Part shown: positions 25,276-51,257 of the stretch, piece by piece
Numbering within the stretch: the stretch's first letter is position 1
Layout: each line of letters opens with the position of its first letter
Assembly (NCBI GenBank): GCA_022707885.1
Contig: JAKIZT010000007.1
Coordinates: forward strand, 1-64,000
Direction: 5' to 3'
From: Caldisericales bacterium
GTDB taxonomy: Bacteria > Caldisericota > Caldisericia > JAAYUI01
DNA length: 64,000 bases
Translations under genes and position numbers: made by a program
Notes under the pieces: model-generated
What the model was told of the DNA's origin: nothing
The model's input: only the letters and a program-made list of their open reading frames with translations
Databases searched by the model: none

Positions 25276-25394
25276 GAAAACCTTTTTTGTAAAACTTTTT
25301 TTCGAGATGCTCCGATAATCATCAAAATATTGTTATTTCAAAGAAAAAGGGCTCCAGTAATTCCAATTTGTGAATTCTATTAACAAGAAAGTAA

Positions 25395-25421: not shown

Positions 25422-25456
25422 CAGTTTCTTCGAATGACCATGCGAAGGAGATGAAA

Positions 25457-27154: not shown

Positions 27155-27162
27155 GGCAGAAA

Positions 27163-29193: not shown

Positions 29194-29201
29194 GGTGAAA
29201 A

Positions 29202-29768: not shown

Positions 29769-29773
29769 CACTC

Positions 29774-31714: not shown

Positions 31715-31789
31715 GATGTATTTATTTAATTGGACATTAAAAAATCAGATTATTTTCATAATTGGGAACAATTAATAAATGCTTATTCG

Positions 31790-33055
31790 TCACTCAAAAC
31801 CATAAAGGTATTTGTCATCGGCAACAAGCACCAGGTCTCTTGTGGACAATACAACCTTAGCGCCCTCGCCAAGATTATTTTCCTTTTTGCTGATCTGCCA
31901 TTTTTCGTCTCCGGTGATTGGGGAAATGGCAAAAATGTTGTCCTTGTCTTCCTGCCAGTATTCTCTCTGGTTTAACGGAAGGGCCTCATCAACAACATTC
32001 AATTTGTTTTCCAGCTTGACAACCGAGTCATTCTTGTAAAGGCAAAGCAAATAGTACAATCCACCTGCTTTGAATTCGAATGGAAAATCGGTTTTCCTGT
32101 CAAGGAACGATCCGGTAGTATTTTCAATTTTTGCTTGATATTCTTTTTCGACCAGCCCGCTTACTTGATTAATCCTTATTATTTTTGTGCTATTTTCAGT
32201 AACCACATACAATCTCTCCTGGTCGACTTCAAATGAAAAATAATCCTCTATATTCTTGAAAGCCAATTCTGATATTTTGAGGGTGTCGAGATTAATCCTG
32301 AATAGCTTGTGGCCTTCGTTATTGAAAGGAGAAGTCAACACCCACAAATATCTATCCGTATTAATAACGCCGCTTATCACCTGCCCGTCAAATGATAACA
32401 TCCACTTTGGAAGGCCAGACCAGCAATTGAGGCACAAAAGTGATCTGGAATTGATACTGACAAAGATGTTGTTTTTGTATCCAACATTGTACAGATGGGC
32501 TTCTTTTATTTTGTACTCCCAAAAAATTTCATTGCTATACAAGTCCCAATAGGCAAGATTTCCGTTTTCTCTGAACCCAAAAACATTTTCACGCGTATCA
32601 AAAATGATTCCCCCAAGCGTATTTGGTTTTTCGGATTTAGGAAGAAGCATCGTTTCTCCCTGTTCTGTTTCAACCACAAATGTCATTGGCAAATATTTTA
32701 TGCTTAACAATTTGTTTTCTGGGGAAAACATATCCCTTTTAGATGTGTTTTTTAGGTCTGATGTCATTCTCCTGTATGGTAATTCTCTCCAGAGAAAGAG
32801 GTCGTACTCCTTGTTGTCAGAAACTGACAATGGGACTGGGAAATCTTTAATGGGCGCCATTTTGAAATCTTTTGCCGGTATAAGCAGTGATTTGTCCTCA
32901 AAGTTGGCATCAGGGGTAATTATGTGCTTTTCAATGTTTTCTTTCATTTTATTCATTATCCCAAGAGGACCGTTTCCAGAGCACCCCAAGACTGCAATGG
33001 CCAGAAAAACCAGCAATAAAATGCATGAATATTTTTTCATATTGTCCTTCATCAT
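31790..33055 (-). CDS. Beta-propeller lipoprotein F (PQQ-like repeats)
   Basis: 421 residues. A signal ends in the lipobox VLGC (LAIAVLGCSG), so the mature protein is predicted to be lipid-anchored outside the membrane. The body has PQQ/quinoprotein-type blades, e.g. NIFVSINSRSLLCLNCWSGLPKW and NIFAISPITGDEKWQIS. Start at 33055 follows AGGAGGG; a longer frame exists. It is a paralogue of the proteins at 33.2 and 34.5 kb, sharing a post-signal motif (SLLIPAK...FPVP here, SLLVPTN...MPVP in the 34.5 kb protein). No catalytic residues recognised. It may be an immunity- or adhesion-type partner of the RHS system upstream, but that is inference. Confidence 0.75.
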   Translation of the reverse strand: MMKDNMKKYSCILLLVFLAIAVLGCSGNGPLGIMNKMKENIEKHIITPDANFEDKSLLIPAKDFKMAPIKDFPVPLSVSDNKEYDLFLWRELPYRRMTSDLKNTSKRDMFSPENKLLSIKYLPMTFVVETEQGETMLLPKSEKPNTLGGIIFDTRENVFGFRENGNLAYWDLYSNEIFWEYKIKEAHLYNVGYKNNIFVSINSRSLLCLNCWSGLPKWMLSFDGQVISGVINTDRYLWVLTSPFNNEGHKLFRINLDTLKISELAFKNIEDYFSFEVDQERLYVVTENSTKIIRINQVSGLVEKEYQAKIENTTGSFLDRKTDFPFEFKAGGLYYLLCLYKNDSVVKLENKLNVVDEALPLNQREYWQEDKDNIFAISPITGDEKWQISKKENNLGEGAKVVLSTRDLVLVADDKYLYGFE

Positions 33056-33218
33056 GTCAGCCCTCCTAATTCCCCTAATAAAAAATGATATCACAAAGCA
33101 AATCGAATACTGCTCAAAATCAATTCAAAGTTTTTTCCAACTACCCTGCTGGGGTTTTGGCAACACTATTATGCCACATTACAAATTGTCTGTACATGGT
33201 AACATAAACAAGAGCGCC

Positions 33219-34436
33219 TTACGGCCTGAAACCGTAGACAAACTTGTCATCCCGAAGGACAACGCCATACTCGTCAGACAACATGATTGTGTAATCTTCC
33301 CCGATTCCTTTTTTGTCGATTGACCATGTATGCTTGAAGGTGTATGGATCGACTCCAATGATCTTTTTCCCATCATCAAAATAATGGTCATTTTCAAGTG
33401 CGATTATTGGATCATTGATACTGGTCACCTTCCGAGATAAAAAATGGAAGACTTCTTGCCTGTCTTTTGTTTCAATGATTAGAATATCATCTGGACCACT
33501 TCCAGTAATATCATCAGTGCTGGAGATGATTCCTGACAAATCAGAAACCATCTTTTTTTCGAATGTTTCCTCATTGACAGCGTAGATCTTCAAATCATTG
33601 TCAATATAACAAAAAGAACCATTTATGAAGCCAAGGAGAAATATATCCTTGGATGCACATACTTCCACAACGATATTCTTGTCTGGATCATATGCGTAAA
33701 CATGCGTATAGGCAGCATATTCTCCATTACTAAAATCAAAATACCGCATCCACAGACACTTGCTGTTACCACCCAAACCTGACAATATTCCTCTGTAGTC
33801 CTGCTCGCATACTATCCCCCAGGCTGGAGTGCCATCGTCAAGGTTGATTTTCGTGATGTCATTTCCAAACTCCTCCTGGACAAAAAGCTGGTTGTTCCAG
33901 ATGAAAGTGTGTTGTTTGTCCAGTCCGAATTTCCACAACACTTTTCCATTTTCCTTGTTTTCCCACATCCCAAGATAGTTTTCCCCATCAACCCTCCCAA
34001 CGGCAATTTCTCTGCCTACATCAAAATAAAACCCCATTTCTCTTATCGAACCAGTTCTGCCATCTTTGGGTGACAAAAGATATTCGGCAGAACCTCTTGA
34101 ATAAACTGCCCAGCCTTGAGGTACTGATTTGACATACCCCCGAAAATCGCCACTAGATTTGTGCAGGTATTTCTGAATGTCGTCCCTCCAGAATTCTTTT
34201 AGTTCAACGCTTGATTCTATGTATGAGCTTTCCCAAAAATTGTACTGGGAGTTCTTTTTGTCCGCATTTGTATAGATAATTTTCTTAAATTGAAGGTCTG
34301 CTTCCGCCAGACCATTGGGGGTTATCGCATACGATTTGACATCTACAACATCTTTTCTTGTAAGGTCGATGCCGGAATAACAGCCAGGGGAAAATATCAT
34401 CAATAAAATTATCAATAAACAACTCAACTTTTTCAT
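33219..34436 (-). CDS. Beta-propeller lipoprotein E
   Basis: 405 residues. Signal peptide with lipobox SPGC (IFSPGCYSG), then PQQ-like blades such as LFVQEEFGNDITKINLDDGTP and a C-terminal VVLRDDKFVYGFRP that mirrors the ends of its paralogues (LVADDKYLYGFE, LVATRDEVIAFGPP). GGGAGGCAG precedes the ATG, 26 bases after the stop of protein D, so D and E probably form one transcript. A 163-base gap separates it from F. Function unknown. Confidence 0.72.
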   Translation of the reverse strand: MKKLSCLLIILLMIFSPGCYSGIDLTRKDVVDVKSYAITPNGLAEADLQFKKIIYTNADKKNSQYNFWESSYIESSVELKEFWRDDIQKYLHKSSGDFRGYVKSVPQGWAVYSRGSAEYLLSPKDGRTGSIREMGFYFDVGREIAVGRVDGENYLGMWENKENGKVLWKFGLDKQHTFIWNNQLFVQEEFGNDITKINLDDGTPAWGIVCEQDYRGILSGLGGNSKCLWMRYFDFSNGEYAAYTHVYAYDPDKNIVVEVCASKDIFLLGFINGSFCYIDNDLKIYAVNEETFEKKMVSDLSGIISSTDDITGSGPDDILIIETKDRQEVFHFLSRKVTSINDPIIALENDHYFDDGKKIIGVDPYTFKHTWSIDKKGIGEDYTIMLSDEYGVVLRDDKFVYGFRP

Positions 34437-34462
34437 GTCACTGCCTCCCTAAAATCTGCCAC

Positions 34463-35770
34463 TCAAGGTGGCCCAAAAGCGATTACTTCATCCCGTGTCG
34501 CAACAAGAACACCTCGCCAGTCGCACTCCAGAACATCGTATGATTCGCCTTTTTCCAGCCCAAGATCGGCTTTGTCAATCCACCAGTATTGTTCGCCGGT
34601 TTCAAAATTAATACCATATATTTTTTCTTTTGTAACGAGAAGACCATAATGATTCATCACTTTATTGCCCGTTCTTGTGTATAGATAGTTGTTTGTTGAC
34701 CCCTGGATTGGAATTGGGTTTTTGGGCTCCTTGAGGTTGAAAATAAAATTGCCATTTTTTGATTTTACGCTAAGAAAGGCCACATTTGGATCTTCTACCA
34801 ATTCCAGAACGCCACCTTTTATGTATTCATCAATTTTGAAAGTTTTGGATGGCACACAAGTTTCAAGGTCCATCTCTGTCAAAACTTTGCCTTCCTCCGA
34901 TATTGCATATAGCTTGCCATTATCAATAAAAAAGGTGCAATAATTTTTGACATCAACTCTCATTATTTCAAGCGTTTCAGGATTGATTCTATAAAGATAG
35001 TCCTGTCTTGGATCAAGCCACTCGTCCCCCTCGATAAAAACATATCTACTTATGCAAGCATAACGGCCAAAAAATAGGCCAGTTCTGTCCCTTTTAAGCT
35101 CCCAGCCCGGAATCCCAGTCCAGGCATTAACTTTCGTTAAAACAATATCCAAAGTACCCATATAATACACTGATTCATTCTTTGAAAAAATCCAGTTGTC
35201 CTTCTCGTTTAAGGACAAGCTCCAGATTTCTTCACCAGAATCAACATTTACAAACATTTTATGCTCTTTAGGTGTCAATAAGCCACGGTTCTCAACAAAT
35301 GCAATTTTGTTTTTTTCATCTAATATGTCATATCTGAACCTGGCTCCAATCTTCTTGCCAGTTGCAGGATCATAAAGACCAGAATCAGAGCCATTTTGTA
35401 TCTGCCATCCATCCTCAAAGTTGTCTGAAGTGACTCCATAGCCAGAAGCATGTTCTTTCTTGAGGTTATTGTTCTTGCTCCATATCTTCTTCAGCTGGCC
35501 TTTATAAAGAAGGGGTTTTGGCTCATAGGGTTCAAGCGGTGCGTTTCTTGGCTCGCCAATTTTTGTTGGGACTGGCATCTCCTCCAGTGGGACAAGCCTA
35601 ATGTTATTGGTTGGCACAAGAAGGGAGCCTTCTGGAAGGTTTGTAGCAGTTTTTATCTCATATTTTGGATGGTTTTTGTAGACTTCTTCTCTGGACGGCG
35701 AACAGCCTGCAAAGAAAATAAATAACAAAATGATTGCAGACAGTTTCCATATGATTTTTCTCCCAAACAT
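34463..35770 (-). CDS. Beta-propeller lipoprotein D
   Basis: 435 residues with lipobox FAGC (FIFFAGCSPS), the SLLVPTNNIRLVPLEEMPVP stretch also seen in F, and PQQ-like repeats (LTKVNAWTGIPGW, YLYRINPETLEI, YGINFETGEQYWW). GGAGGAG directly upstream of ATG. It has its own promoter (35801-35829). Paralogous to E and F; function unknown. Being lipid-anchored outside the cell, it would suit protection against, or presentation of, an extracellular protein. Confidence 0.72.
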   Translation of the reverse strand: MFGRKIIWKLSAIILLFIFFAGCSPSREEVYKNHPKYEIKTATNLPEGSLLVPTNNIRLVPLEEMPVPTKIGEPRNAPLEPYEPKPLLYKGQLKKIWSKNNNLKKEHASGYGVTSDNFEDGWQIQNGSDSGLYDPATGKKIGARFRYDILDEKNKIAFVENRGLLTPKEHKMFVNVDSGEEIWSLSLNEKDNWIFSKNESVYYMGTLDIVLTKVNAWTGIPGWELKRDRTGLFFGRYACISRYVFIEGDEWLDPRQDYLYRINPETLEIMRVDVKNYCTFFIDNGKLYAISEEGKVLTEMDLETCVPSKTFKIDEYIKGGVLELVEDPNVAFLSVKSKNGNFIFNLKEPKNPIPIQGSTNNYLYTRTGNKVMNHYGLLVTKEKIYGINFETGEQYWWIDKADLGLEKGESYDVLECDWRGVLVATRDEVIAFGPP

Positions 35771-35800
35771 ATCTCCTCCTGCAGATTTTAATTAATACCA

Positions 35801-35829
35801 ATCATAAGGATTTGACGAATTCAAATCAA
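35801..35829 (-). promoter_or_regulatory. Promoter for propeller lipoproteins D-E
   Basis: On the minus strand: TTGATT (35829-35824), 17 bases, TATGAT (35806-35801). The start would be near 35794, leaving a 24-base leader with GGAGGAG before the ATG at 35770. Confidence 0.5.
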
Positions 35830-35871
35830 TTGCATGATGCCACGAGAAGAACTTTTTATACCTCAAATTGG

Positions 35872-35894
35872 AAATAGAAACTACCTTTCTATTT
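35872..35894 (-). terminator. Weak AT-rich hairpin after propeller C
   Basis: Nine-base stem AAATAGAAA/TTTCTATTT with a 5-base loop, 23 bases downstream of the stop at 35917. There is no U tract, so it could slow or protect rather than terminate; a promoter for the next gene follows it. Confidence 0.3.
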
Positions 35895-35916
35895 GTAAAC
35901 CTAGTTTAATATCATA

Positions 35917-37134
35917 TCATTTTTGGCCATATTCCATCAGATAGTAGCAAGAAACAGTGTCATTGTTCTGGAAACATATCACACCATTTCTGTAGGATAC
36001 GCCGCCAATCTGGTTAGGTACCTGATAGCTCCAAACCTTACTTCCATCTTTAATGTCATAGGCGGTAATGTATGAGGCATCCTTGTAGGCCTCATAGACA
36101 ACAGGGTTCTTTTCGAAAGCGATGAAATCCATATCTTGTGATTCTTTTACATCTATGTCTTGCAAGACTTCACCATTGCTTGCTTTGAGGCACATCAATT
36201 TTGCATGATAACTTTTGTCATCCTCCTCCGAATCTCTCTGTATGTATGGTATGAATATCTTTCCTTCCTTGATTTGTTCTTTGTTTTCCATTTTAGCCCA
36301 GGCCAAAGCAAGTTTCTTCTCCCATATCACCTTATACTCGCCATTTTGAAGACCAGCAAAGACAATACCACTACCCTCGCTGTTTCGATAACTCAAGACG
36401 ATGTTGTCTTCCATAAAAAATGCATTGTTAATTGAATTGTTTACGTCCCAAGAAAGTGCGAACTCCCACATTGTTTTTCCAGTTATTTTGTCGATCATGA
36501 ATACAGAATCATTCCTTTTGTCTTTCTCTCCAAGGCACAAGGCATACTTGTCATTTTCGTCAGAGAACCTTAGTGAGTGTAAGCCATCAACACTGTACTT
36601 TTGGATAAGGGTTTGTGTTGCTGCCGTGACGTCAAATGTGAAGATGTTCTTGCCAATGCCTACCCACAACTTGTTGTAGCTTATCTCGATACCGTTATAT
36701 TGGTCATCTGGGCTTTCTTTGTATTGTTTCAGGTTGGCATAGGGATATTCGTATCCCATGTATTCTGATACATCCGTGTAGTAAATTTCGTCACCTTTTT
36801 GTATGTAAACATCATTTTCAAAGGTGGCAATATCATAAATGGTATCATTCAAGTTTGTTGGGTACCGCCAGTTCTCATTTCCATTATCGACATTGAGAGA
36901 GTAAAAAAGATGTAGGTACGGACAACAATATGGTCCAAGGTCTCTGTACAACAGTATGCTCGAATCCATGATGATTGGCCTGATATAGGTAGCATCAAGG
37001 TCCATATTTCTCTCCCAGAGCTTTACAATGCCTGGCATTTTTGCTTCGGTTTTAACAAGTGTATATGGAAAGATGTTGGCTAAAATGACCAGAACCACAA
37101 CAAGTATCTTTCTAATTTGTGTTTTTGCCCTCAC
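35917..37134 (-). CDS. Secreted beta-propeller protein C
   Basis: 405 residues. Predicted signal peptide (RKILVVVLVILANIF...) without a lipobox Cys. PQQ-like repeats follow (FYSLNVDNGNENWRY, FMIDKITGKTMWEFAL, YDIKDGSKVWSY). Unlike A and B it has no stalk domain at the end. GTG start at 37134 placed 7-8 bases after GAGGAGGT; an ATG at 37176 is in frame but lacks an SD. It follows a short footprint of RHS sequence (37219-37228), suggesting it once sat behind an RHS tip. Confidence 0.7.
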   Translation of the reverse strand: MRAKTQIRKILVVVLVILANIFPYTLVKTEAKMPGIVKLWERNMDLDATYIRPIIMDSSILLYRDLGPYCCPYLHLFYSLNVDNGNENWRYPTNLNDTIYDIATFENDVYIQKGDEIYYTDVSEYMGYEYPYANLKQYKESPDDQYNGIEISYNKLWVGIGKNIFTFDVTAATQTLIQKYSVDGLHSLRFSDENDKYALCLGEKDKRNDSVFMIDKITGKTMWEFALSWDVNNSINNAFFMEDNIVLSYRNSEGSGIVFAGLQNGEYKVIWEKKLALAWAKMENKEQIKEGKIFIPYIQRDSEEDDKSYHAKLMCLKASNGEVLQDIDVKESQDMDFIAFEKNPVVYEAYKDASYITAYDIKDGSKVWSYQVPNQIGGVSYRNGVICFQNNDTVSCYYLMEYGQK

Positions 37135-37218
37135 TGCTCTTACCTCCTCAATTCTCGATAAACACATTTTACGCACATCTACAGTTGCTGTCCATTTTTG
37201 TAATGGTAATCACCACCT

Positions 37219-37401
37219 GTGGGGAGGGTGGAATAGGGATTATGTAGCATTTATATTCATGGTTGGTATGTGACTATGATTGTTTTGGTCTCTGCAATCC
37301 ATTTGACGGTACAACCAAGGTTCTCAGCAAGGAAACGGAGGGGAACCATGGTTCTGCCATCTTTGATGATTGGGGTTATTTTGGGGTTTTTGGGGTCGAT
37401 C
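37219..37401. repeat. 183-bp repeat, copy 1 (stalk 3' end plus RHS footprint)
   Basis: Aligns without gaps to 40523-40705 (offset 3304) with seven mismatches that I counted. It covers the last 46 codons of propeller B's stalk domain, its stop, a short spacer and about 10 bases of the RHS-core repeat. Similarity stops abruptly at both ends. Confidence 0.9.
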
Positions 37402-38759
37402 ATTACAAAATCACCATTTGCGAAAGCTTTTGGGTTATTCTTCCAAAAAATAATCGATTTTTTACCAAGTTTTATATGAGTACTTGATTCCTCCTTATCA
37501 AAAACAATATTTCCTCCAAATGGTTCGCAAACAAATCTTGCCGGAATATAAGAAATATTGTTTAGTGCAATTACTTGAGTATCCATAATCCATTTTCCAA
37601 AATCAGTTTCATACTCATTTGAGTTTATTTTAAAATTGATATTGCTCGTTGATTTACTTATACAATTAATGTAACCGTTTCTTGTTACTAAGAACAATAA
37701 ACCATTGGAATAGCTTAAATTAGAAACAATGTCAGAACCAAAACATGTTTCATTAAACATTTTTCCTGTTTTTGAATCAATTTTAATAACACAATCCCCA
37801 CTTTGGATTAACAATGTTCCCCCAGCTAATAAATTCAATCCCAAGGAGTTTAATTTTACATCATTAAAAACCCAGAGCGATTTGCCATTTCTTATATCTA
37901 ATTTTTTAATACCCATTTTCGATTCACAATATAAATATATCCCATCCGAAACTATATCCCAGTATTTATCTTGAGATTGCCAAATCACTTCAGATGTGTT
38001 TAAATTTAAGCAGAGAATCGTATTATCTTTATTGGAGGCTATCAATTTATTAGAACAAGCCATTGATAGTGGTAAATACCTTTTAAACGACCATTTTAAC
38101 TTACCTGTTATCGCATCAAAACAATGTGTAGAATCGTCATCAAAAGAGCTAATTGCAATCAAATCATCGGATAATATCATGCTATCTGGATGATATTCCG
38201 TTTGGCGATTTATTTTTCCAAGGGGTATGTTTGTTTGCCAAACAATTTCACCATTTGATGGCGATAAACTGATTATACGACGTTTCAAGTCAATTCCATA
38301 TATAGAATTATTTGTGATATTAAAATACTCTATTCCAAGAGAAGTTTCCCATACAATTTTGCCGCTCACAAAATCAATGCAATAGAAAATATCCTCAGTA
38401 TTTGCATATACATAATTTTTAAATATTGAAACTCTTATAATTGACTTTGTTGTTTCAATTCTCCACAGGATATTACCATTATCAGATTTGATACATAGTA
38501 TGGAATATTTATTTTTAATAGCACTTTGATCAGCAATGATGATTTTATCATCACTTATCAGTACTTCATTATCAAATTGGTACTTTGGCAAAGCCTTCCA
38601 TCTTAGTGCTAACGAGTTCTTTTCTTCTCCATTTGTAGTAATGGATCTAAGATTTTGTGGATTACCACCATATGATGTCCAACCCTCATGTTCTTTTCCA
38701 TATGAAGAACACAAGGTCATCATAAATATACAAAATATAACAATTGCAAAGTTCTTCAT
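37257..38759 (-). CDS. Secreted beta-propeller/stalk protein B
   Basis: 500 residues. Signal peptide (MKNFAIVIFCIFMMTLCSSYG). Six or more PQQ-like blades follow, with the classic alternation NGNILWRIE, SGKIVWETS, NGEIVWQTN, TGKLKWSFK, TSEVIWQSQ, NGKSLWVFN. The C-terminal about 120 residues are copper-amine-oxidase-N-like stalk units, ending TMVPLRFLAENLGCTVKW. The last 46 codons are nearly identical to those of protein A, while the rest is diverged. GAGGTG before ATG; it starts 34 bases after the orphan RHS tip, mirroring the A arrangement. Confidence 0.82.
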   Translation of the reverse strand: MKNFAIVIFCIFMMTLCSSYGKEHEGWTSYGGNPQNLRSITTNGEEKNSLALRWKALPKYQFDNEVLISDDKIIIADQSAIKNKYSILCIKSDNGNILWRIETTKSIIRVSIFKNYVYANTEDIFYCIDFVSGKIVWETSLGIEYFNITNNSIYGIDLKRRIISLSPSNGEIVWQTNIPLGKINRQTEYHPDSMILSDDLIAISSFDDDSTHCFDAITGKLKWSFKRYLPLSMACSNKLIASNKDNTILCLNLNTSEVIWQSQDKYWDIVSDGIYLYCESKMGIKKLDIRNGKSLWVFNDVKLNSLGLNLLAGGTLLIQSGDCVIKIDSKTGKMFNETCFGSDIVSNLSYSNGLLFLVTRNGYINCISKSTSNINFKINSNEYETDFGKWIMDTQVIALNNISYIPARFVCEPFGGNIVFDKEESSTHIKLGKKSIIFWKNNPKAFANGDFVMIDPKNPKITPIIKDGRTMVPLRFLAENLGCTVKWIAETKTIIVTYQP

Positions 38760-38793
38760 AAGAGATCACCTCTTTTTTATAAGCTCCACTATT

Positions 38794-40554
38794 TTATTTG
38801 AGATTTTCAACATGGTTCCAATCTCGCATAAAAAAACTGTACCACCAACTACTTTTATCTATAGTTCCTCTGGCCCATATACCACTATCTTGATACACTT
38901 CGTATTGTCCACTTTCCCTTAGAACAATATAATTCCCATTATAGAAGATGCTACCTCCTCGTCCTTTATAACCATCAGGAGCAAGACCATCAGAAAATTG
39001 TATATCTGTATGTCTGAAATTAAAAGCATCTCTCCCAGTTTTCCCATCAAAAGTTGATACACTCCCAACAGGAATTTGTAATTTTATGCCATGACAATTT
39101 GAAATATTACCTTCTCTTTCTTTATCATATATTCCAGTTATACATGCATAAACAATAAGTCTTTCACCAGTGAAATTAACGGATGAGTAACCATCCGCGT
39201 AACTGTCCCACATACCATAAAATTCATCTGGCGATAAATTCCATTCATTATAAGTTTTAGCTGGATCATATTCTGTATTTGAAAAAGCTCCGCAACCTGG
39301 TGGGAAAAAGAATTTTGGCGTTGAACCCGATAATTGATAGCCAAGGACAGAAACTAAATAAAAACCTGTGCTTTCGTCAAATTTTAAGCCAAAAGCAGCC
39401 CACATCAAATTTGCAATATCTTCATCTGTTAAACCTTTATCTTTCAATGCTTTAATTTGATCTGCATTCAACATGCTGGGATCAAATGATGATGAGGAGT
39501 ATAAACCTCTCCTTACTAAATCAACGTCTGAACCAGCCATTTGTGGTTTTGCTGCTTCTCTCACCCAAAAATCTGAATAGTTGTTTCTTTGTTTTACAAG
39601 CTCATCCAACCATTTCATATGATCCGACATATCATCAACAGGCTCATTTTTCTTGACAGGTGGTGGATCAAACATAAATCCTAGGTTTTCGCTGTTACGT
39701 TCGAGGATGTCACCACCATCTTCAGTATCACCATTGGTACAAATAATACCGTTGATGTTTTTTTCTCCAACATCCTTGGCACCAATAAGCCTTGCATCTG
39801 GGTTGGAGTAGTCCAGGCTTGGTGGGTCAGACTGCTTGCCAGCATTCGCTATCCCATCTGCTGATCCTGGAGGGGGTGAGAAGGAGCTTGTTGCGGCAAT
39901 ATCAGAGAGTAGCTGTTGCTCAGGAAGGGAGGAGGTGGACATGGAGTTGATGGTGGAGATGGAGGTGGGGTTGGGCATGGCTGGTGAGCCTGTTCCCTGG
40001 AGGAGGGTGCCTGTCTGGGGGTTGTAGTAGCCTGAGGAGAAGTAGAGGCCAGTTTCTGTATCAAGGATGGTCTGTGATGCTCCCATGAAGGTGAAGGGGT
40101 TTGGTATGGAGTCAGGGTTGGTTTCTGAGGTGATGTTGCCAAGGGTATCATATGTGTAGGTGATCTTGGTGTCCTGGTTGGTATCTGTTACCTTAAGGGT
40201 ATTGCCATGTACATCATAGTGGTAGTAGTAGGTGGAGGTGGTTGTTGTCTGTGATTCTCCGGTTCCTGTGTGTCTTGTCCATTCAAAGGATATAGGCTGG
40301 CTGTTTGCTCCTATGTGGTATATGAGTTCCTGGTCCAGGAGGGTGGTGGAGGAGTCTCTCACTTTGTCCAGCTCTATTTCTGTTATTACTCCTCCTGCAT
40401 AGTGGTACTTGTATGTGGTCACATCTGTGTGTGGTGTACCATCTATTGTTATATGGGAGGTGTAGGTCTTTTTGAGTCTTCTTCCTGATGCATCATACTG
40501 GAAGGTAACCGTGTCATTGTTAGTGGGGAGGTTGGAATAGGGATTATGTAGCAT
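38794..40554 (-). CDS. Orphan RHS-tip cassette (displaced C-terminal end of an RHS protein)
   Basis: 586-codon frame. Residues about 7-217 copy the last 210 residues of the big RHS protein's core (631 bp, 3 mismatches), ending GLYFSSGYYNPQTGTLLQ and SLPEQQLLS. They are followed by a different 370-residue tip. The first codons (MLHNPYSN) come from the junction sequence; no SD precedes this ATG and there is no signal peptide, so it is probably not expressed unless recombined into the full-length gene. The tip's last about 150 residues are distantly similar to those of the main protein: HGIKL, FRHTD, GSIFYNGNYIVL. Confidence 0.8.
   Translation of the reverse strand: MLHNPYSNLPTNNDTVTFQYDASGRRLKKTYTSHITIDGTPHTDVTTYKYHYAGGVITEIELDKVRDSSTTLLDQELIYHIGANSQPISFEWTRHTGTGESQTTTTSTYYYHYDVHGNTLKVTDTNQDTKITYTYDTLGNITSETNPDSIPNPFTFMGASQTILDTETGLYFSSGYYNPQTGTLLQGTGSPAMPNPTSISTINSMSTSSLPEQQLLSDIAATSSFSPPPGSADGIANAGKQSDPPSLDYSNPDARLIGAKDVGEKNINGIICTNGDTEDGGDILERNSENLGFMFDPPPVKKNEPVDDMSDHMKWLDELVKQRNNYSDFWVREAAKPQMAGSDVDLVRRGLYSSSSFDPSMLNADQIKALKDKGLTDEDIANLMWAAFGLKFDESTGFYLVSVLGYQLSGSTPKFFFPPGCGAFSNTEYDPAKTYNEWNLSPDEFYGMWDSYADGYSSVNFTGERLIVYACITGIYDKEREGNISNCHGIKLQIPVGSVSTFDGKTGRDAFNFRHTDIQFSDGLAPDGYKGRGGSIFYNGNYIVLRESGQYEVYQDSGIWARGTIDKSSWWYSFFMRDWNHVENLK
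39905..40535. repeat. 631-bp RHS-core repeat, copy 2 (orphan)
   Basis: Direct repeat of 43253-43883 with constant offset 3348, no gaps and three mismatches on reading through. It encodes the end of the RHS core. The boundaries are sharp: different tip sequence on one side, stalk-gene junction on the other. Confidence 0.95.
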
Positions 40555-40705
40555 TTATATTCATGGTTGGTATGTGACTATGATTGTTTTGGTCTCTGCA
40601 ACCCATTTGACGGTACAGCCAAGGTTCTCGGCGAGGAAACGGAGGGGGACCATTGTTCTGCCATCTTTGATGATTGGGGTTATTTTGGGGTTTTTGGGGT
40701 CGATC
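40523..40705. repeat. 183-bp repeat, copy 2 (stalk 3' end and RHS junction)
   Basis: Matches 37219-37401. It contains the last 46 codons of propeller A, its stop, the spacer with the ATG of the orphan frame and the first 13 bases of the RHS repeat, thus bridging two cassettes. Confidence 0.9.
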
Positions 40706-42111
40706 TGGACTTTTTTTCCGTTGACAGTGGCGGTTGGGTTGTTGATTGTCATGCTAACAGTTTTTTTAACAAGCCCTGCCAACACATTTTTTGTCTTGCT
40801 GTTCCAGACTATGTAACCTCCCAGTGGCTCTACAAGGTACTTCGCTGGCAAATAGGTAATACCATTTATAATGGCTGGAGATGCATCAATTTCTTCTTCA
40901 CCCTTTTCAGTTTGAAGAATCTTCCTGTCAACTTGGAAAGAAATTACATCTGAGGCTTGGGAAAGAAATACCTCCAATTTTGTTTTATTGTTTTTCTCAT
41001 CATATTTCTCAATCACCACTGCCTGGTCGGAAATTGTTTTTGCGCCAGCATAATCATACTGCTGTTTATAATTGCTGTAGTCATATTTCCAGTACATCCT
41101 GTCCAGAAAGGGGTTGCCGTATGCGATGTATTCACCAAACATCCCAAAGAAACAGTCACCCTTAAAGTTGGGTTCCCAGCTGTCAACCCACTGATCAGGA
41201 GCAAACTTGTCAGTTGAAATGAATTTGCCAGTTTCAATATCAAAATACATCCTGGTGCGGATACGAGTGAAATACTTATTTCCCTCTTCAGGCAAGGAGC
41301 CAAAAAAGACAATATAATTGCCCCTAAAATCAAAAACATTGCTGTATTTATGGGTGTCTATATTCCAAATATATTTCCCGTTTTCAAGATTCGCACAAAC
41401 AAGCAGAGAGTCAATGGTATAAAAAAGTTTTCCTTTAAGAATTGCCTCTGGTGATGCTACACTGCCATACTCATCCTCCCATACTTTCTGCCTGGATTCA
41501 ATATCGTAGCAAGCTATCTTTGTTTTGTGCTTGTTAAAATCCCAATGGCTGATATACACCAGTTTGTTGCCATCCAGCAGACCATGTCCTCCAAAATTAT
41601 CGAGCTGGATTTCCCAGTTGATGCTGCCATCTTTCTTGCTGAAATTTATTACCTTTTTCTCGCAAGTCAGGATAAAAGTACCATCCCCCCTGTTATACAC
41701 CTCACCTATGTAATAGGTTGGGATTTCTTTTGTCCATATTTCATCGCCATTATTTGGATTTAAGCAGTAGAGTTTGTTGTGTACAGAAAACAAGAAACTT
41801 TCTTCATCCAGATATAATTGTGAATGGTTCTCGTATCCCTCGATCATTTTCTTCCACAATCTGTTTGTTGCCAGATTGATAACGCCAACTTCTATATTTT
41901 TTGAATTGGTCGAGAGGAAAGCGAGATTATTTTCGTTAAGAATGTATCTTATCGATCCAGCTCCTCCAGCTCCAAAAACCAGGTAGGATATTTCGTATTC
42001 ACCATTTTTACAAAATCTCTTGTCCGAGATGCCTGCAACAGATCTATATTCAAGAAGCACAAAAGAGCAAACAATCATCATGGACAAGAAAAGAGTTAGC
42101 ACCTTTCTCAT
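40561..42111 (-). CDS. Secreted beta-propeller/stalk protein A
   Basis: 516 residues. Signal peptide (MRKVLTLFLSMMIVCSFVLL...), PQQ-like blades (LYCLNPNNGDEIWTKEI, VINFSKKDGSINWEIQL, IACYDIESRQKVWEDE, VCANLENGKYIWNI), then two stalk-type units ending TMVPLRFLAENLGCTVKW. The start lies 21 bases downstream of the RHS stop, with AGGAGG between, so translation is coupled to the RHS gene, the position of an immunity gene in polymorphic toxin loci. The predicted location is extracytoplasmic. Whether it binds, folds, anchors or neutralises the RHS tip is unknown. Confidence 0.82.
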   Translation of the reverse strand: MRKVLTLFLSMMIVCSFVLLEYRSVAGISDKRFCKNGEYEISYLVFGAGGAGSIRYILNENNLAFLSTNSKNIEVGVINLATNRLWKKMIEGYENHSQLYLDEESFLFSVHNKLYCLNPNNGDEIWTKEIPTYYIGEVYNRGDGTFILTCEKKVINFSKKDGSINWEIQLDNFGGHGLLDGNKLVYISHWDFNKHKTKIACYDIESRQKVWEDEYGSVASPEAILKGKLFYTIDSLLVCANLENGKYIWNIDTHKYSNVFDFRGNYIVFFGSLPEEGNKYFTRIRTRMYFDIETGKFISTDKFAPDQWVDSWEPNFKGDCFFGMFGEYIAYGNPFLDRMYWKYDYSNYKQQYDYAGAKTISDQAVVIEKYDEKNNKTKLEVFLSQASDVISFQVDRKILQTEKGEEEIDASPAIINGITYLPAKYLVEPLGGYIVWNSKTKNVLAGLVKKTVSMTINNPTATVNGKKVQIDPKNPKITPIIKDGRTMVPLRFLAENLGCTVKWVAETKTIIVTYQP

Positions 42112-42132
42112 TTTTGGCCTCCTTTTCTTATA

Positions 42133-45100
42133 CTATGGGCACATGTACCAAGTTTTGCCTGTTCCTTCTATCTTTCTGTTGTATAGAAAAAACCAATTGT
42201 AGATTAATCCGCCTACTTCACATTTACAATGATCCACTAATTTTTTATTATTTTTATTAAAAACATCAAAGTATCCGTTTGAATATAAAACAACTTGATT
42301 ACCTGCTTCAAAAATAGATCTTTGATAAGCATATGAAGCGTTAATATCCCATGTACCATTCGGATTTACTCGATCAACATCGCAGTGCTTATAGGAAAAT
42401 TGATAATTACCAAATTTTCTAAGATCTGCAGCTCGCGTTTTGTTGACACCGTTACCTATCATAATTTTCACACCATGCGAAAAACCATCACCTGCACAAC
42501 CTACATCTAATATGACCATATTGGAGCCAGAAGTGTTTATTGATTTAACATATCCAGAACCAGGATCGCCTCTGTTGAAATATTCTTGCCACTCATCTTC
42601 CCACACATTAATGCCAGTGTAATTATCTCCTTGTTCAGTTTTGCGAATATTTTTACCATCATTCGATCCTCCCGAAGGCCAGAATATCTGGGCTCTCTGG
42701 TCACTAAGTTTGTAGCACATGACCTCAGCATGGTAGGTTGTTGTTTTTGTCTTGTCGTCATAAGTGCTGTAGACAGCAACAGCTGCAGCTTCAATGCAAT
42801 ATGTGACTTCTGTCCCCTCTGCTGTCTTGCAGGTGACAGAACCATCCTTCATGTCAAAGGTAATATCCGTACATCCTTCCTCTGTAAGGTCTTTTGTGAT
42901 TCTGTCCTTAACAGCAGCCTTTTCAACTCCATTCAGATCGTCCCATTCAGTATAGTCTCTTGGACGACCACTCATGATGTTGTTGTACTCACGCTCGGTT
43001 ATTTCGTTACCTGCATTGTCATAGTAATGTTTTATGATACCTGTGTAACCATTACCACCATCAGAACCACACCAATTGTTTGGGTCCCTCATTTCAATGC
43101 CTATCCATGGGTATGCCATTAGTGTCGGTGAGAGGCCATCTGTTATTGTTGCCTCAACTTCACTTGTTCTGGCATCAGTATCAGATCTGGCAAGTCCTTC
43201 TGACACCCCTGAGGATGGGGCATAGCTCTCAATCTGTGCATACGCCTGATGGGAGAGTAGCTGTTGCTCAGGAAGGGATGAGGTGGACATGGAGTTGATG
43301 GTGGAGATGGAGGAGGGGTTGGGCATGGCTGGTGAGCCTGTTCCCTGGAGGAGGGTGCCTGTCTGGGGGTTGTAGTAGCCTGAGGAGAAGTAGAGGCCAG
43401 TTTCTGTATCAAGGATGGTCTGTGATGCTCCCATGAAGGTGAAGGGGTTTGGTATGGAGTCAGGGTTGGTTTCTGAGGTGATGTTGCCAAGGGTATCATA
43501 TGTGTAGGTGATCTTGGTGTCCTGGTTGGTATCTGTTACCTTAAGGGTATTGCCATGTACATCATAGTGGTAGTAGTAGGTGGAGGTGGTTGTTGTCTGT
43601 GATTCTCCGGTTCCTGTGTGTCTTGTCCATTCAAAGGATATAGGCTGGCTGTTTGCTCCTATGTGGTATATGAGTTCCTGGTCCAGGAGGGTGGTGGAGG
43701 AGTCTCTCACTTTGTCCAGCTCTATTTCTGTTATTACTCCTCCTGCATAGTGGTACTTGTATGTGGTCACATCTGTGTGTGGTGTACCATCTATTGTTAT
43801 ATGGGAGGTGTAGGTCTTTTTGAGTCTTCTTCCTGATGCATCATACTGGAAGGTAACTGTGTCATTGTTAGTGGGGAGGTTGGCCTGCTTGAGCTGGTTC
43901 TCATATGTGTATTCATATGTGGTGACATAGTCCGGATCGACTGTGGGGGAGGAGGGGGAGAGCCAGATGTTCTTTCTGAGGAGGTCTTCCATCTGTTTGT
44001 TGTTTCTTGTGGCAATGTCCCAGGTGGCAGTGTCCATGTGTGAGGAGGGGAGGTATGGGGAGAGGTCATACGTCCTCAGTGAGGAGGGGGCATACCGGTG
44101 GGGGTAGTGGACCCTTGAGGATTCAAGCTTTTCTTTGGAGGGGAGGGAAGAGGGGGAGAGGACGAAGGGGGAGCCGGAGTAGTATTCCTTGCTGGTGCAG
44201 TTGCCGTTGTTGTCGTATGCAAAGAGTTCATAGGCGGTGGACTCGTAGTCAACCCTTGTGAGCCTGTCTGCGACATTGAAGGTGAAGTCGGTGTTGTCAG
44301 TTCCACCAATGTCTATATCTGTCCTGTTGCCCCTCTGGTCGTATGTGTACACGACATCATTCGTGGTGCCTGGCTTGTCAACGTTTGTGAGCCTGTTTAG
44401 TGCGTCGTATGTGTAGCTCCAGGTATCGGAGCCAACTTTTTCTGAGGTTATGTTGCCGTTGTTGTCAAATGTGTAGTCCAGGTCAAGAATTGATGTGTTG
44501 TCAGATTTCTTTACATCGATGTTTGTCATCCACCCGTTGGCATTGTACAGGTAATCGGCCAAAACACCTGTGGGGTAGTCCATGCCTGTGGCCCAGGAGT
44601 TGTCATTGTATGAGTATGAGGTGGTCTGGGAGGACCTGGTTGCCTGGGTCATTTTTCCTGCGGTGTCCCAGGTGTATGTGCGGGCATCACCCTCTGCGGT
44701 GAGCTGGGTTATCAGCCCCTCTGCATTATACTGGAACTGGTGCGTGAAGTCCCAAGGATCATCGGTTGATGTGAGTCTGCCAATGTCGTCGTATGTGAAT
44801 TCTGTTGTTCCCACTGAATCAACAAAGCTGGTCAACCTTGAGAGATCATCGTAATTGAAAGAGACCGTTGACGAATCTGGATACGAAATCTGCGTGAGTC
44901 TTGAAATGTCATCGTATGTATAACCGATTGTCTGGCTCTTCCTGTCGGTGGTGGAGGTGAGAAGCCCGTTGTCATTGTACGAGAACGTCGCATAGTGTGA
45001 AAGCTCGTCAGTGGCACGGGTGAGCCTGCCAACATCATCATACTGGAAGCCAACTGTTGGCGGTGTGGCCTGCGGAGGCTTCTTGAATTCAGTAATTCTT

Positions 45101-48100
45101 GAGTTGTCATCGTATGTATATTGATAAACATTTGATAGAGGGTCGGTGGCTTGGGTCATTCTGTAAATGGCATCATATTGATACTGCCAGTTGTTCCCCC
45201 TTCTGTCCCTCACCTGTGTGACATTACCCACGGCATCATAAGTAAATTGGGAATAATTGCCCGCAGCATCATAAGCTTTGGTGACTCTGTTCAACGCGTC
45301 ATACTCAAAATCGCAATGGTTGGTCATTGGGTCAGTAATTCTGGTCACCCTTCCTGCGTTATCGTATGTGTAGGACTGCGTTTTGCCATCAGAGTTCTCG
45401 GACGATGTCATAAGACCATCGGAGTTGTATGAGAATTCTTGGGCTGTAGTGCTTGGCCCATCAGCTTGAACAAGTTTGCCAGCATTGTCATAAGTCTTAG
45501 TCCATGACTGACTCAAAGCATTGGTCGTCTGCGTAAGTCTGTTTAGATCATCATAGGTGAAATTGGTTTCTTTCTGAAGGGCATTTGTAATCTTTGTCAG
45601 ATTGTCATTATTGTCATACTGCAATGATGTTGTTTTATTAAGAGGATTTGTGACCTGGGTGAGTCTGTCGTGCGTGTCGTACTGTAACGAGGTCGTCTTG
45701 TTCATTGGATTGGTTACAGAAGTGATGTTGGAATTGTTGTCATAAGCAACCGTTGTCGCTTCGTTTTCCGGATTTGCGACAGTTGTAACCCTGCCCAGAG
45801 TATCATATGTGTAGGATGTTCTCTTGTTCATTGGGTCCTCAACCCAATTAATTCTTCCGTCACTCCTTCTATTTATTTCAACCTCATGATTGAGGGCATT
45901 TTTGACCTTCACAAGTCTCGAGTTATTGTCATAAGTGTAGTAAATAGAGTGATTGAGAGGATCTTTTGCTTCAGTGAGATTGCCGGAGTTGTCATAATAA
46001 AAATTCCATGGATTGTTTAAAGGATCCGTAGCTGTTTTTAGTCTGCCACGATTATCGTAAATGTAGGTCCAGTCATTGCCATTGGGGTCTTCGTAGGAAG
46101 ACACCTTGCCAGTTGCAGAATTTGTATAATTCCATGTCTTTCCAGATGGACTCTGGACTGAATTCGGATAATTGTTGGAGTCATACGCTATACCCCAGGT
46201 TGAAGTACCTTGGCCATAAGGAGAAGTAACGCTTGTTAATTTGTTATTAGTATAGCCAAAGGCAACTTCCTGATTTAGGGGGTTGGTTATTTTTGTGAGC
46301 TTATTATTTGTGTATTCAAAAGAAGTATTCTTGTTTTTTGCGTCGGTATAAAGTGTTAACTGGTTGCTGGAGTTAAATGCAAAGCTTTGCGTCAATCCTT
46401 CAATATTCGTTGATGTTATGTTGCCATTTGAGTCATAAACAAGTGTTATAAGGTGACTTTTTGGATCTGTGATCTGGGTCACTTCTTTCATCGAATTTCT
46501 TTGGTATTCTGTGATCAAGGTGCCAGTTTGAATTTTTGAAATATACCCAGAGCTATCAAATGTGCACTCAGAAGTTTGTATATTTGGATCTGATATCTGT
46601 GTAACTGTATCACCTATCACATAGGATTTTTGCACTGTGCTATAGCTGTCTTTGGCACTGGTTATTTTCCCGTTAGTGTCATACTCAAATGTGTAAGATT
46701 GATTGTTTTCATTTGTTAACGATGTGAGTCTCCCCAAAAGATCATAAGCATACCCTATAAGCTTACTTTCCTGGTCTGTTCTTGTTACAAGCATATTTGA
46801 TCCATCATAGGTAAAACTAACAACTTTGGACTCTGGATCAGTTACATCAGTAAGCCTTCCCCACTGGTCATAAGTAAAAGTAAGATTTCTACTAGTTGCA
46901 TAATCAGTTACAGCTGATAGTTGGTCTTGATTCCATGAAATATCAATTCTTCCACCAAGACGGTTTGTCATTCTGAGAAGCTTGCCACCAGCACCACTAT
47001 TGTATTCGAAATAAAGTTTGTTATCGAATTTATCAAGAATGACATAATAATCAGCCCCAGAAATATTTTCTACTTGTAACTTTAGTCTTGAGAATTCAGG
47101 GGAATCCCATCCGCCAGAAGAAACATTTTTTGGAAATTCCAGATAACAGCCGTTTGAGGATCGATAAACACCATTGCCCGTCATTGAGTTTATTGTCATC
47201 TGTTGATGGTAGTTAGATGTCCAGCCGGGCCCCATGCCATAATTGACATTTGAGCATGAGTTATATGTTCGCACAAAAGACAATGACATTCCGCCGAAGA
47301 TTCCAAAACCAATGTCATATTGTGTAAGATATGTCGATCCGGTATAAGTGTTAACTGAAACGTTTCCGGCTCCATTCCCAAAACTCAAATCCGAGCCAGA
47401 CGGAGAACCACCTTCCTGATTTACAAATTCAATAACAAGTGCTGGTGCACTGCCACTTACGCTACAGTCGCTTTGGCCAGGTGCAGTTACTCTAAAACCA
47501 AAACCAACACAATCGTCTAAACCATAGAAATGATTTTTTACCATGTCCGTTACATCATATAACAATGGAACAGGCGGATTTACAGCAGGCCAGGTCAGAC
47601 CATTTCCAACTGCTTGCCCCCATGGCTGGCTTCCCCATGCCATTGTTGCTGATTCCCAACCAACTCCAACATCATATATTCCTATTCCAACAGCTGTTCC
47701 ACATGAATTGGAAATAAGTTGAGTATCAAACAAAAGATGTGCTGAGAGAATTTTTATCTTTCTTGAATAATCGATGTTGTATTTAATGTAAGTATTTGTC
47801 TCAACCACAAGTGGGGGTGTTACTATATTGGTGTTCTGAACACCAAAGTAGGAGGTCGGATAAACTGTTGTGGTCACAACCCCATTGCGGTTCTCTAAAG
47901 TTATATTATCAACAAGACCAGGATCTCCAGTTGGACAAACAAGATTTCTATTGGGTTGAATACTTGTTTCATCTCCAGATAGCGGTTTCTCTTGTGTCCC
48001 ATTCGAACCAAGAACCATTGAGAAAACTCCGTTTTTCTCCTGATATAATTTATACATCTTAGCGCCTGCTGGGGTAATATCAGTTTTTTCCTTTGGGAAT

Positions 48101-48267
48101 CTTGCCCTTTCTCCATCGACAGGTCTAGCTGATGGTGGAACACTCCGCTCGACCTGAGATGCTTTGGCAGTGCCCAGAAAAACAAAAATATTAGAAAATA
48201 GCGTAAAAGAAATAAAAACAACAATAAAAAATTTGAATTTCTTCCACATATTACCCATATTATTCAT
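42133..48267 (-). CDS. Secreted giant RHS/YD-repeat protein with variable C-terminal tip
   Basis: 2044 residues. Signal peptide (about 8-36, ending in TAKA). A DNRLRE-type carbohydrate-binding-like region at about 117-283 (ILSAHLLFDTQL... GWESATMAWGSQPW), as in WapA-like wall-associated proteins. A DUF6531-like start near 300, then dozens of YD repeats (YTYDxxGRLTxVTDP) that would form the hollow RHS shell. The core ends near 1672 with ETGLYFSSGYYNPQTG. The tip (about 1673-2044) is unrelated to known domains to my eye: Cys-rich, with HGVKI, YKHCD and SIFEAGNQVVL. Residues 1462-1672 are duplicated at 39905-40535. SD AGGTGAGGG abuts the ATG. Toxin function is inferred from architecture only. 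Confidence 0.92.
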   Translation of the reverse strand: MNNMGNMWKKFKFFIVVFISFTLFSNIFVFLGTAKASQVERSVPPSARPVDGERARFPKEKTDITPAGAKMYKLYQEKNGVFSMVLGSNGTQEKPLSGDETSIQPNRNLVCPTGDPGLVDNITLENRNGVVTTTVYPTSYFGVQNTNIVTPPLVVETNTYIKYNIDYSRKIKILSAHLLFDTQLISNSCGTAVGIGIYDVGVGWESATMAWGSQPWGQAVGNGLTWPAVNPPVPLLYDVTDMVKNHFYGLDDCVGFGFRVTAPGQSDCSVSGSAPALVIEFVNQEGGSPSGSDLSFGNGAGNVSVNTYTGSTYLTQYDIGFGIFGGMSLSFVRTYNSCSNVNYGMGPGWTSNYHQQMTINSMTGNGVYRSSNGCYLEFPKNVSSGGWDSPEFSRLKLQVENISGADYYVILDKFDNKLYFEYNSGAGGKLLRMTNRLGGRIDISWNQDQLSAVTDYATSRNLTFTYDQWGRLTDVTDPESKVVSFTYDGSNMLVTRTDQESKLIGYAYDLLGRLTSLTNENNQSYTFEYDTNGKITSAKDSYSTVQKSYVIGDTVTQISDPNIQTSECTFDSSGYISKIQTGTLITEYQRNSMKEVTQITDPKSHLITLVYDSNGNITSTNIEGLTQSFAFNSSNQLTLYTDAKNKNTSFEYTNNKLTKITNPLNQEVAFGYTNNKLTSVTSPYGQGTSTWGIAYDSNNYPNSVQSPSGKTWNYTNSATGKVSSYEDPNGNDWTYIYDNRGRLKTATDPLNNPWNFYYDNSGNLTEAKDPLNHSIYYTYDNNSRLVKVKNALNHEVEINRRSDGRINWVEDPMNKRTSYTYDTLGRVTTVANPENEATTVAYDNNSNITSVTNPMNKTTSLQYDTHDRLTQVTNPLNKTTSLQYDNNDNLTKITNALQKETNFTYDDLNRLTQTTNALSQSWTKTYDNAGKLVQADGPSTTAQEFSYNSDGLMTSSENSDGKTQSYTYDNAGRVTRITDPMTNHCDFEYDALNRVTKAYDAAGNYSQFTYDAVGNVTQVRDRRGNNWQYQYDAIYRMTQATDPLSNVYQYTYDDNSRITEFKKPPQATPPTVGFQYDDVGRLTRATDELSHYATFSYNDNGLLTSTTDRKSQTIGYTYDDISRLTQISYPDSSTVSFNYDDLSRLTSFVDSVGTTEFTYDDIGRLTSTDDPWDFTHQFQYNAEGLITQLTAEGDARTYTWDTAGKMTQATRSSQTTSYSYNDNSWATGMDYPTGVLADYLYNANGWMTNIDVKKSDNTSILDLDYTFDNNGNITSEKVGSDTWSYTYDALNRLTNVDKPGTTNDVVYTYDQRGNRTDIDIGGTDNTDFTFNVADRLTRVDYESTAYELFAYDNNGNCTSKEYYSGSPFVLSPSSLPSKEKLESSRVHYPHRYAPSSLRTYDLSPYLPSSHMDTATWDIATRNNKQMEDLLRKNIWLSPSSPTVDPDYVTTYEYTYENQLKQANLPTNNDTVTFQYDASGRRLKKTYTSHITIDGTPHTDVTTYKYHYAGGVITEIELDKVRDSSTTLLDQELIYHIGANSQPISFEWTRHTGTGESQTTTTSTYYYHYDVHGNTLKVTDTNQDTKITYTYDTLGNITSETNPDSIPNPFTFMGASQTILDTETGLYFSSGYYNPQTGTLLQGTGSPAMPNPSSISTINSMSTSSLPEQQLLSHQAYAQIESYAPSSGVSEGLARSDTDARTSEVEATITDGLSPTLMAYPWIGIEMRDPNNWCGSDGGNGYTGIIKHYYDNAGNEITEREYNNIMSGRPRDYTEWDDLNGVEKAAVKDRITKDLTEEGCTDITFDMKDGSVTCKTAEGTEVTYCIEAAAVAVYSTYDDKTKTTTYHAEVMCYKLSDQRAQIFWPSGGSNDGKNIRKTEQGDNYTGINVWEDEWQEYFNRGDPGSGYVKSINTSGSNMVILDVGCAGDGFSHGVKIMIGNGVNKTRAADLRKFGNYQFSYKHCDVDRVNPNGTWDINASYAYQRSIFEAGNQVVLYSNGYFDVFNKNNKKLVDHCKCEVGGLIYNWFFLYNRKIEGTGKTWYMCP
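43253..43883. repeat. 631-bp RHS-core repeat, copy 1 (in the full-length gene)
   Basis: Encodes the end of the RHS core, from LPTNND to SLPEQQLLS. Near-identical to 39905-40535 (3 mismatches). Recombination between the copies would delete 3348 bp and replace tip A and propeller A with tip B and propeller B. Confidence 0.95.
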
Positions 48268-48580
48268 CCCTCACCTCTTTTTAATTTTTAGTGTTTATAT
48301 CCCAATTGCTGATATGCGTAATAATATCAACAATCCCGTTTGTCAATAGCTCATATATGCTCTTTGTAAATCTCCGCACAAGGTAAGACAAAAATTTTCT
48401 ATGTTTAAAATTTAAAGAATAAGAACATAGCATAATATTTTGGTACAAAAAAGTAATGTTTCTTATTACGCTGAAATTTTTGTTTTTATTCGGTCGAAAC
48501 AATAAAAGATTCTTGGCAAACAACCAATTACAAATTTGCAAGGTTCAACTATTCCAAACTGAATTCGTATCTAATCAACT
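48268..48580. other. 313-bp intergenic region upstream of the RHS gene
   Basis: AT-rich sequence without a supported gene. It contains the RHS promoter (48318-48346) and the 3' flank of the stalk-thioredoxin gene. I see no clear terminator, RNA gene or mobile-element end in it. Confidence 0.6.
48318..48346 (-). promoter_or_regulatory. Promoter for the RHS operon
   Basis: On the minus strand: TTGACA (48346-48341), 17 bases, TATTAC (48323-48318). The start would fall near 48311, leaving a leader of about 44 bases with AGGTGAGGG before the ATG. Confidence 0.5.
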
Positions 48581-50342: not shown

Positions 50343-50408
50343 TATTTTTACTCCTTGCTATCTTTATACCTTCTATAAAAATAGAGTCAAGCCAAATAAA
50401 ACCTGTAT

Positions 50409-50437
50409 TTGACAAAGCGAATGCAACCAAATAAAAT
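50409..50437 (+). promoter_or_regulatory. Promoter for the Nif3-like/ABC operon
   Basis: TTGACA at 50409-50414, 17 bases, TAAAAT at 50432-50437; predicted start near 50444, 38 bases before the GTG at 50482. One of the best consensus matches in the window. Confidence 0.6.
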
Positions 50438-50481
50438 AATCCAGTAATGCCAAACACGAAACATGAAAAGGATTCTAACTA

Positions 50482-51249: not shown

Positions 51250-51257
51250 GGGGCACG

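Follow-up and report, generated by a model that had tools for sequence, protein, structure and literature searches.

An RHS/YD-repeat locus of a Caldisericales bacterium with putative displaced toxin-immunity cassettes and exported β-propellers as candidate immunity partners

Layout and direct repeats of the RHS locus

The window analyzed here is a 64,000-nucleotide stretch from a digester bacterium, a Caldisericales metagenome-assembled genome (MAG; G000, 1.94 Mb in 88 contigs), and the locus under study lies on contig C76 of that MAG. On the minus strand, the gene for a secreted RHS protein of 2044 amino acids (aa) is followed by a gene for an exported β-propeller (prop1), an orphan open reading frame (ORF) joining a fragment of the RHS core to a second C-terminal tip, and a second propeller gene (prop2). 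Four more exported propeller genes without tips (p3, p4, p5 and p6; 37176-31790) come next and are part of the same array as prop1 and prop2. The features are listed below.

42133..48267, minus strand: RHS/YD-repeat protein, full-length, secreted, 2044 aa; N-terminal hydrophobic signal, DUF6531, RHS repeats, core end, tip 1
43253..43883, minus strand: R1, main copy; RHS core end, candidate 5' homology arm
42133..43254, minus strand: tip 1, type I, 373 aa; no Pfam or PHROGs family
40561..42111, minus strand: prop1, exported PQQ-type β-propeller with C-terminal Cu_amine_oxidN1 (stalk) domain; strong Shine-Dalgarno sequence; candidate immunity protein for tip 1
40523..40705, minus strand: R2, first copy; prop1 3' end and junction, candidate 3' homology arm
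38794..40554, minus strand: displaced orphan ORF, RHS core fragment and tip 2; no signal peptide, no Shine-Dalgarno sequence at its ATG
39905..40535, minus strand: R1, orphan copy
38794..39906, minus strand: tip 2, type I, 370 aa
37257..38759, minus strand: prop2, exported PQQ-type propeller with stalk domain; candidate immunity protein for tip 2
37219..37401, minus strand: R2, second copy; prop2 3' end and 38-bp scar with 13 bp of RHS core
35917..37176, minus strand: p3, exported weak PQQ propeller, tipless orphan partner; ortholog in G001
34463..35770, minus strand: p4, orphan partner, a lipoprotein propeller related to partners of the sister locus; orthologs in G001 and G003
33219..34436, minus strand: p5, lipoprotein-like orphan partner; ortholog in G001, absent from G003
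31790..33094, minus strand: p6, lipoprotein orphan partner, most distal of the array; orthologs in G001 and G003

The full-length protein is a large secreted protein with YD/RHS repeats, matching PF05593 over 18 stretches (E 8e-105) as well as TIGR01643. The tip-marking motif PxxxxDPxGL is absent from it, near-matches (PIGYKDPSGF, PVSFGDPSGF) being found in the sister loci described below, and its score against the RHS_core equivalog NF041261 does not reach the cut-off (185.7 bits against 2000). We therefore call it RHS-like rather than a canonical E. coli-type Rhs.

A previous reading of the window from its letters alone (the sequence-only reading) had proposed a unit of conserved core, variable tip, variable propeller and conserved 3' end, bounded by two near-identical repeats. 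Both repeats were recovered with the same mismatch counts, and the repeats and ORFs together bear out this anatomy. The first, R1, aligns 43253-43883 with 39905-40535 over 631 bp without gaps (3 mismatches, 99.5% identity, offset 3348), and the second, R2, aligns 40523-40705 with 37219-37401 over 183 bp (7 mismatches, offset 3304); a scan of 34000-52000 for direct repeats of at least 40 bp yielded none besides these. The offset of 3348 equals 3 x 1116, so each tip is read in the same frame from its R1 copy. Positions 40523-40535 (13 bp) belong to both R1 and R2, which thus form one junction. The distal R2 copy reaches 38 bp beyond the stop codon of prop2 and includes 13 bp of RHS core, so that a third core fragment probably once stood behind prop2. 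Since the R1 copies are more similar to each other (99.5%) than to those of the congeners (94.0-94.7%), their duplication or conversion must be recent.

Core ends are 94-99% identical across G000 and its congeners G001, G002 and G003 and the tips behind them are divergent, giving an abrupt change from core to tip. A different tip does follow each core copy in the window, but the two tips are not unrelated: their C-terminal parts are homologous (26% identity, E 5e-6). Further, the first 72 residues of tip 2 are 76% identical to the start of a tip of another class (type II, see below) in G001 and form a mosaic linker. In prop1 and prop2 alike, a PQQ-type propeller is joined to a C-terminal Cu_amine_oxidN1 domain; the last 134 residues of the two are 54% identical and their propeller bodies far less so, and p3-p6 are weaker propellers, mostly lipoproteins. 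Shine-Dalgarno sequences precede prop1 (AAGGAGG) and prop2 (AAGAGGTGA), and there is none before the ATG of the orphan ORF at 40554.

Directly upstream of the RHS gene (48581-50342, minus strand) lie two tandem genes for exported proteins, in which an N-terminal Cu_amine_oxidN1 (stalk) domain is fused to a redoxin/thioredoxin-like domain.

The same site and related arrays in other Caldisericia

We compared the locus with a small set of Caldisericia MAGs, comprising the three congeners and G004 of the same family, all from uncultured organisms. A search of genome contigs added only the same four Caldisericia MAGs and one distant RHS, a plasmid search with tip 1 gave no match, and our literature search found no paper joining Caldisericota and Rhs.

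In the three congeners the flanks are 89-91% identical to those of the window, which places the arrays at the same chromosomal site, and the sets of tips and partners between them differ. In the window, the order is kdp genes, p6, p5, p4, p3, prop2-tip 2-core and prop1-tip 1-RHS. G001 has kdp genes, a tipless stalk partner, p6, another propeller, p5, p4, p3, a type II partner and a type II tip, with a 63-bp scar of RHS core (98% identity) between the partner and p3. G002 carries a single cassette adjoining the flank (flank, stalk partner, type II tip), and G003 has kdp genes, p6, another propeller, a p4 hybrid and a different tip. The partner that follows the tip in G002 has a 91%-identical counterpart in G001 (L052 8351-9412), which stands at the far end of the array and has no tip. 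We read the arrays as ordered by age, with the oldest material at the flank and the newest beside the RHS core.

Two local differences were seen at this site. The kdp stretch 25220-31789, which includes KdpD (29774-31714), is missing in G002 and present in G001 and G003; the RHS array of G002 abuts a homolog of 25217 (L051 15815-15866). The p4 ortholog of G003 (L053 16053-17375) carries another signal peptide, joined on at the lipobox, and the tip before it holds a hydrophobic stretch.

A comparable array is found on a single contig of G004 (C16). Its full RHS gene ends in a type I tip and is accompanied by a propeller; a stalk partner goes with a second core-tip, of type II, and there are truncated core pieces. 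A further stretch, with propeller, type II core-tip and stalk partner, is inverted (L054 10576-15245). This inversion is edged by short truncated core pieces, as if core copies facing in opposite directions had recombined.

Displacement between species is seen most directly at a sister locus. A block made up of about 620 bp of core end together with tip X and lipoprotein X aligns gap-free over 2687 bp (93.6% identity) between contig C8 of the source MAG and contig C20 of G002; in G002 it is the end of a full RHS gene and in G000 it is a displaced orphan. The same acetyltransferase gene lies behind both arrays, and C8 also holds a core with tip Y at the contig end. The lipoprotein that follows a tip on contig C9 of G003 has an 81%-identical counterpart without a tip at the distal end of the C8 array (L057 1034-2413). 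Tipless genes with tip-following orthologs thus occur in two comparisons, G001 with G002 and C8 with C9. As with R2 in prop1 and prop2, the lipoproteins of C8 share only their 3' ends (58-187 bp at 76-95% identity).

To judge the constraint on these genes, we computed ratios of nonsynonymous to synonymous substitution rates (dN/dS). Tipless genes of the window are under purifying selection, with ratios of 0.26 for p3 and 0.16 for p5 (both against G001), 0.36 for p4 (against G003) and 0.09-0.11 for p6 (orthologs in G001 and G003). The G002 partner and its tipless copy in G001 gave 0.18, main and orphan tip X 0.08, and lipoprotein X 0.24, the flanking genes ranging from 0.01 to 0.08. The orphans are kept functional, though some of this constraint may predate their displacement.

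Tip-partner pairing and lysozyme-like tips

A partner gene lies directly behind the tip in all 19 tips for which the gap was determined (−31 to +49 bp), and a hydrophobic export segment is present at the N-terminus of all 23 proteins of partner type. Many partners match PQQ_2, SBBP or DUF5050, the type II partners excepted. BLAST comparisons separate two tip classes, type I (tip 1, tip 2 and one tip of G004, A) and type II (those of G001 and G002 and two of G004, B and C), and the partners sort into the same two sets: type I tips are followed by a propeller with stalk domain in 3 of 3 cases and type II tips by a stalk protein without propeller in 4 of 4, several of the stalk-domain matches lying below the Pfam cut-off. 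The comparison that the sequence-only reading had proposed as a check comes out in its favor: tips and partners co-vary as pairs, by class and in nearly all typed cases, and other pairs are found at the same site in the three congeners and in the G004 array.

In the source genome as a whole, prop2 has 98 matches, mostly to proteins with a stalk domain (Cu_amine_oxidN1) or a PQQ propeller, which form a large family. Behind RHS genes of more distant bacteria, inspected non-systematically, small genes without an obvious export signal often follow.

A third tip class stands behind RHS cores in G000, G002, G003 and the f5 family and aligns with Caldisericia SLT domains. With an alignment of 10 sequences, hhalign gave a probability of 93.7% (E 1.8e-7), the best of 30 shuffles reaching 0.14%; an earlier comparison of only three sister tips had been weak (5%). 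The SLT family PF01464 itself has no match in the genome of the window. Where the sequence behind them is readable, these lysozyme-like tips are followed by a gene for a lipoprotein or membrane-anchored protein, several of which are recognizable propellers (PQQ_2, SBBP, DUF5050). In one further locus (L105, G008:C43), a transposase-like gene (1-889) is found in the expected partner place, close behind a lysozyme-like tip (1279-2421).

In the third RHS locus of the source MAG, on contig C2, related membrane-anchored genes are lined up behind the tip. Here (L063 415-4586) the tip is possibly lysozyme-like, and the membrane-anchored partner gene behind it is present in one complete copy and two partial ones, separated by runs of N that reflect an assembly gap or masking.

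Structure predictions were of limited use for the other two classes. The type II tip model was confident in part (residues 33-170), and Foldseek returned nothing at E <= 0.001 for it in PDB or a viral library; the AlphaFold2 model of the type I tip, built from 3 sequences, had a confidence (pLDDT) of 34 and was not used. A common C-terminal fold of type I and type II tips was considered and dropped, as the hhalign match between them is limited to the N-terminal linker.

Interpretation and comparison with known systems

We interpret the locus, with a probability of about 0.74, as an RHS/YD-repeat polymorphic-toxin locus with displaced orphan toxin-immunity cassettes, in which exported propellers are the immunity partners; the RHS protein would then probably be a weapon against other bacteria. 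We infer that the RHS protein, once secreted, displays at its C-terminus an effector tip that is toxic outside the cytoplasmic membrane, and that the β-propeller behind each tip, exported by Sec or as a lipoprotein, neutralizes that tip there; the lysozyme-like nature of the sister-locus tips fits such an external antidote. New cassettes of tip and partner would enter beside the RHS core, using R1 as 5' arm and the conserved partner 3' end, R2, as 3' arm. The previous cassette would be shifted downstream, its tip becoming a silent orphan that is later lost and its partner gene being retained as spare immunity.

Recombination between the R1 copies would delete 3348 bp and, since the frame is kept across R1, would join tip 2 in frame to the RHS gene and activate it; recombination between the R2 copies would delete 3304 bp and discard the orphan. 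The sequence-only reading had described the orphan as a displaced replacement cassette. Displaced it is, and the R1 exchange would indeed bring it into use, but it looks rather like an older cassette that, with neither a Shine-Dalgarno sequence nor a signal peptide, is probably silent.

Several observations weigh against this interpretation. Tip 1 and tip 2 match no toxin family in searches of Pfam, PHROGs and PDB sequences, and have no detectable relation to the lysozyme-like tips (hhalign 0.2%). Searched against PDB sequences, prop2 finds only tetrathionate hydrolase and chains of the BamB type, with no known inhibitor among them and no relation to Tsi1 or PliI. The typed tip-partner pairs are few and phylogenetically related, and G003, where an odd tip is followed by the p4 hybrid, is an exception to class pairing. 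All three congener contigs end inside R1, so that the main or orphan status of their tips is not readable, and the cases of displacement between species concern the sister locus and partner genes rather than tip 1 and tip 2 themselves.

The most serious alternative, which we nevertheless consider improbable, is that the propeller is a co-secreted structural or adhesive partner, tip and propeller with stalk forming a variable surface complex (an adhesin or kin-recognition pair) and the array serving as a store for antigenic variation. The missing toxin signature of type I and type II tips would suit it, as would the abundance of stalk and propeller proteins in the genome (the 98 prop2 matches), which implies other roles for them here. 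Yet long runs of tipless partner genes under purifying selection fit spare immunity better, and in sister loci the same gene position is occupied behind lysozyme-like tips. A plain segmental duplication of the RHS end and propeller, followed by divergence without exchange or displacement, would account for the presence of a repeat at either end, at similar offsets (3348 and 3304), and for the homology between the two tips and between the two propellers. We regard it as very unlikely: the core ends are 99.5% identical and the tips about 26%, the propeller bodies fall far below the 54% of the last 134 residues, and no ortholog pair comes near the divergence of the tips and propellers, although the R1 copies are closer to each other than congener orthologs are (94%). 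Near-identical R1 copies beside such divergent tips and propellers indicate that the cassettes were imported or converted rather than simply duplicated. Least probable of all is an assembly artefact joining variants of one locus from two strains, which the 88 contigs of the MAG and the breaks of congener contigs inside R1 might suggest, since arrays of the same geometry exist in a different genome (G004) and on contig C8, the junctions fall precisely at gene borders and synteny continues in the flanking genes.

If the toxin-immunity interpretation is correct, it extends the displacement of such cassettes to an under-studied phylum, with unusually clear snapshots between species, in which a tip is the main one in one species and an orphan in the next and candidate antidotes are kept without tips. 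It further suggests exported β-propellers as tunable antidotes, which would link many unexplained secreted PQQ-like and stalk proteins of these bacteria to bacterial competition, and the comparison of loci predicts which tip-partner pairs to test. More tentatively, and with somewhat less than even confidence, we propose that the β-propeller is a general, rapidly diversified extracytoplasmic immunity scaffold in Caldisericia, each RHS tip having its own exported propeller, with or without stalk domain; that the conserved gene end is a dedicated 3' homology arm by which tip and antidote are exchanged together; and that type I and type II tips are new envelope-targeting toxin families.

Among known systems, RHS polymorphic toxins (PMC3482391) share with the locus a Sec-exported RHS protein, a variable C-terminal tip, a linked downstream gene and the inclusion of cell-wall-directed tips; in the parts of that survey considered here, propellers occur as components of export systems or of toxin proteins, and not in the role of the linked immunity gene. 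Exported propeller-like inhibitors of peptidoglycan hydrolases are known in Tsi1 (PMC3391265), PliI-Ah and X-Tfi XAC2610 (PMC10933484). The partners described here resemble them in having a propeller-like fold outside the cytoplasm and, in sister loci, in being paired with a candidate cell-wall hydrolase; they differ in being of PQQ, SBBP or DUF5050 type, often with a stalk domain, and the likeness to hydrolases is limited to the sister-locus tips.

The tipless partner genes stacked downstream of the current tip-partner pair recall the type VI secretion system (T6SS) arrays of Vibrio cholerae, where stacked immunity genes are kept after sequential displacement of effectors (PMC5361080). Here, however, the tip belongs to an RHS protein rather than to a VgrG or T6SS effector, no T6SS is implicated, and the partners are propellers.

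The closest counterparts are the orphan rhs-CT/rhsI and cdiA-CT/cdiI modules (PMC3150448), in which a core fragment, a tip and a downstream gene stand behind the full-length gene. Such orphans have no translation start, and the orphan of one strain can be the main tip of another; likewise, the orphan tip of the window is without translation start signals, and sister tip X is main in one species and orphan in the other. They differ from the locus in that here each partner is a large propeller or stalk protein that is exported, the conserved partner 3' end provides a second homology arm, and the RHS protein of the window is without PxxxxDPxGL. The sequence-only reading had not recognized a two-repeat cassette that also swaps a propeller gene. 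As the propeller is best read as the immunity partner of the tip, the locus falls within the known kind of orphan toxin-immunity module, with the propeller partner and the second arm as variant features. The mechanism itself is thus already known from Rhs/Cdi orphans and immunity arrays, and what is new is the phylum, the exported propeller and stalk partners, and the second homology arm in the partner gene.

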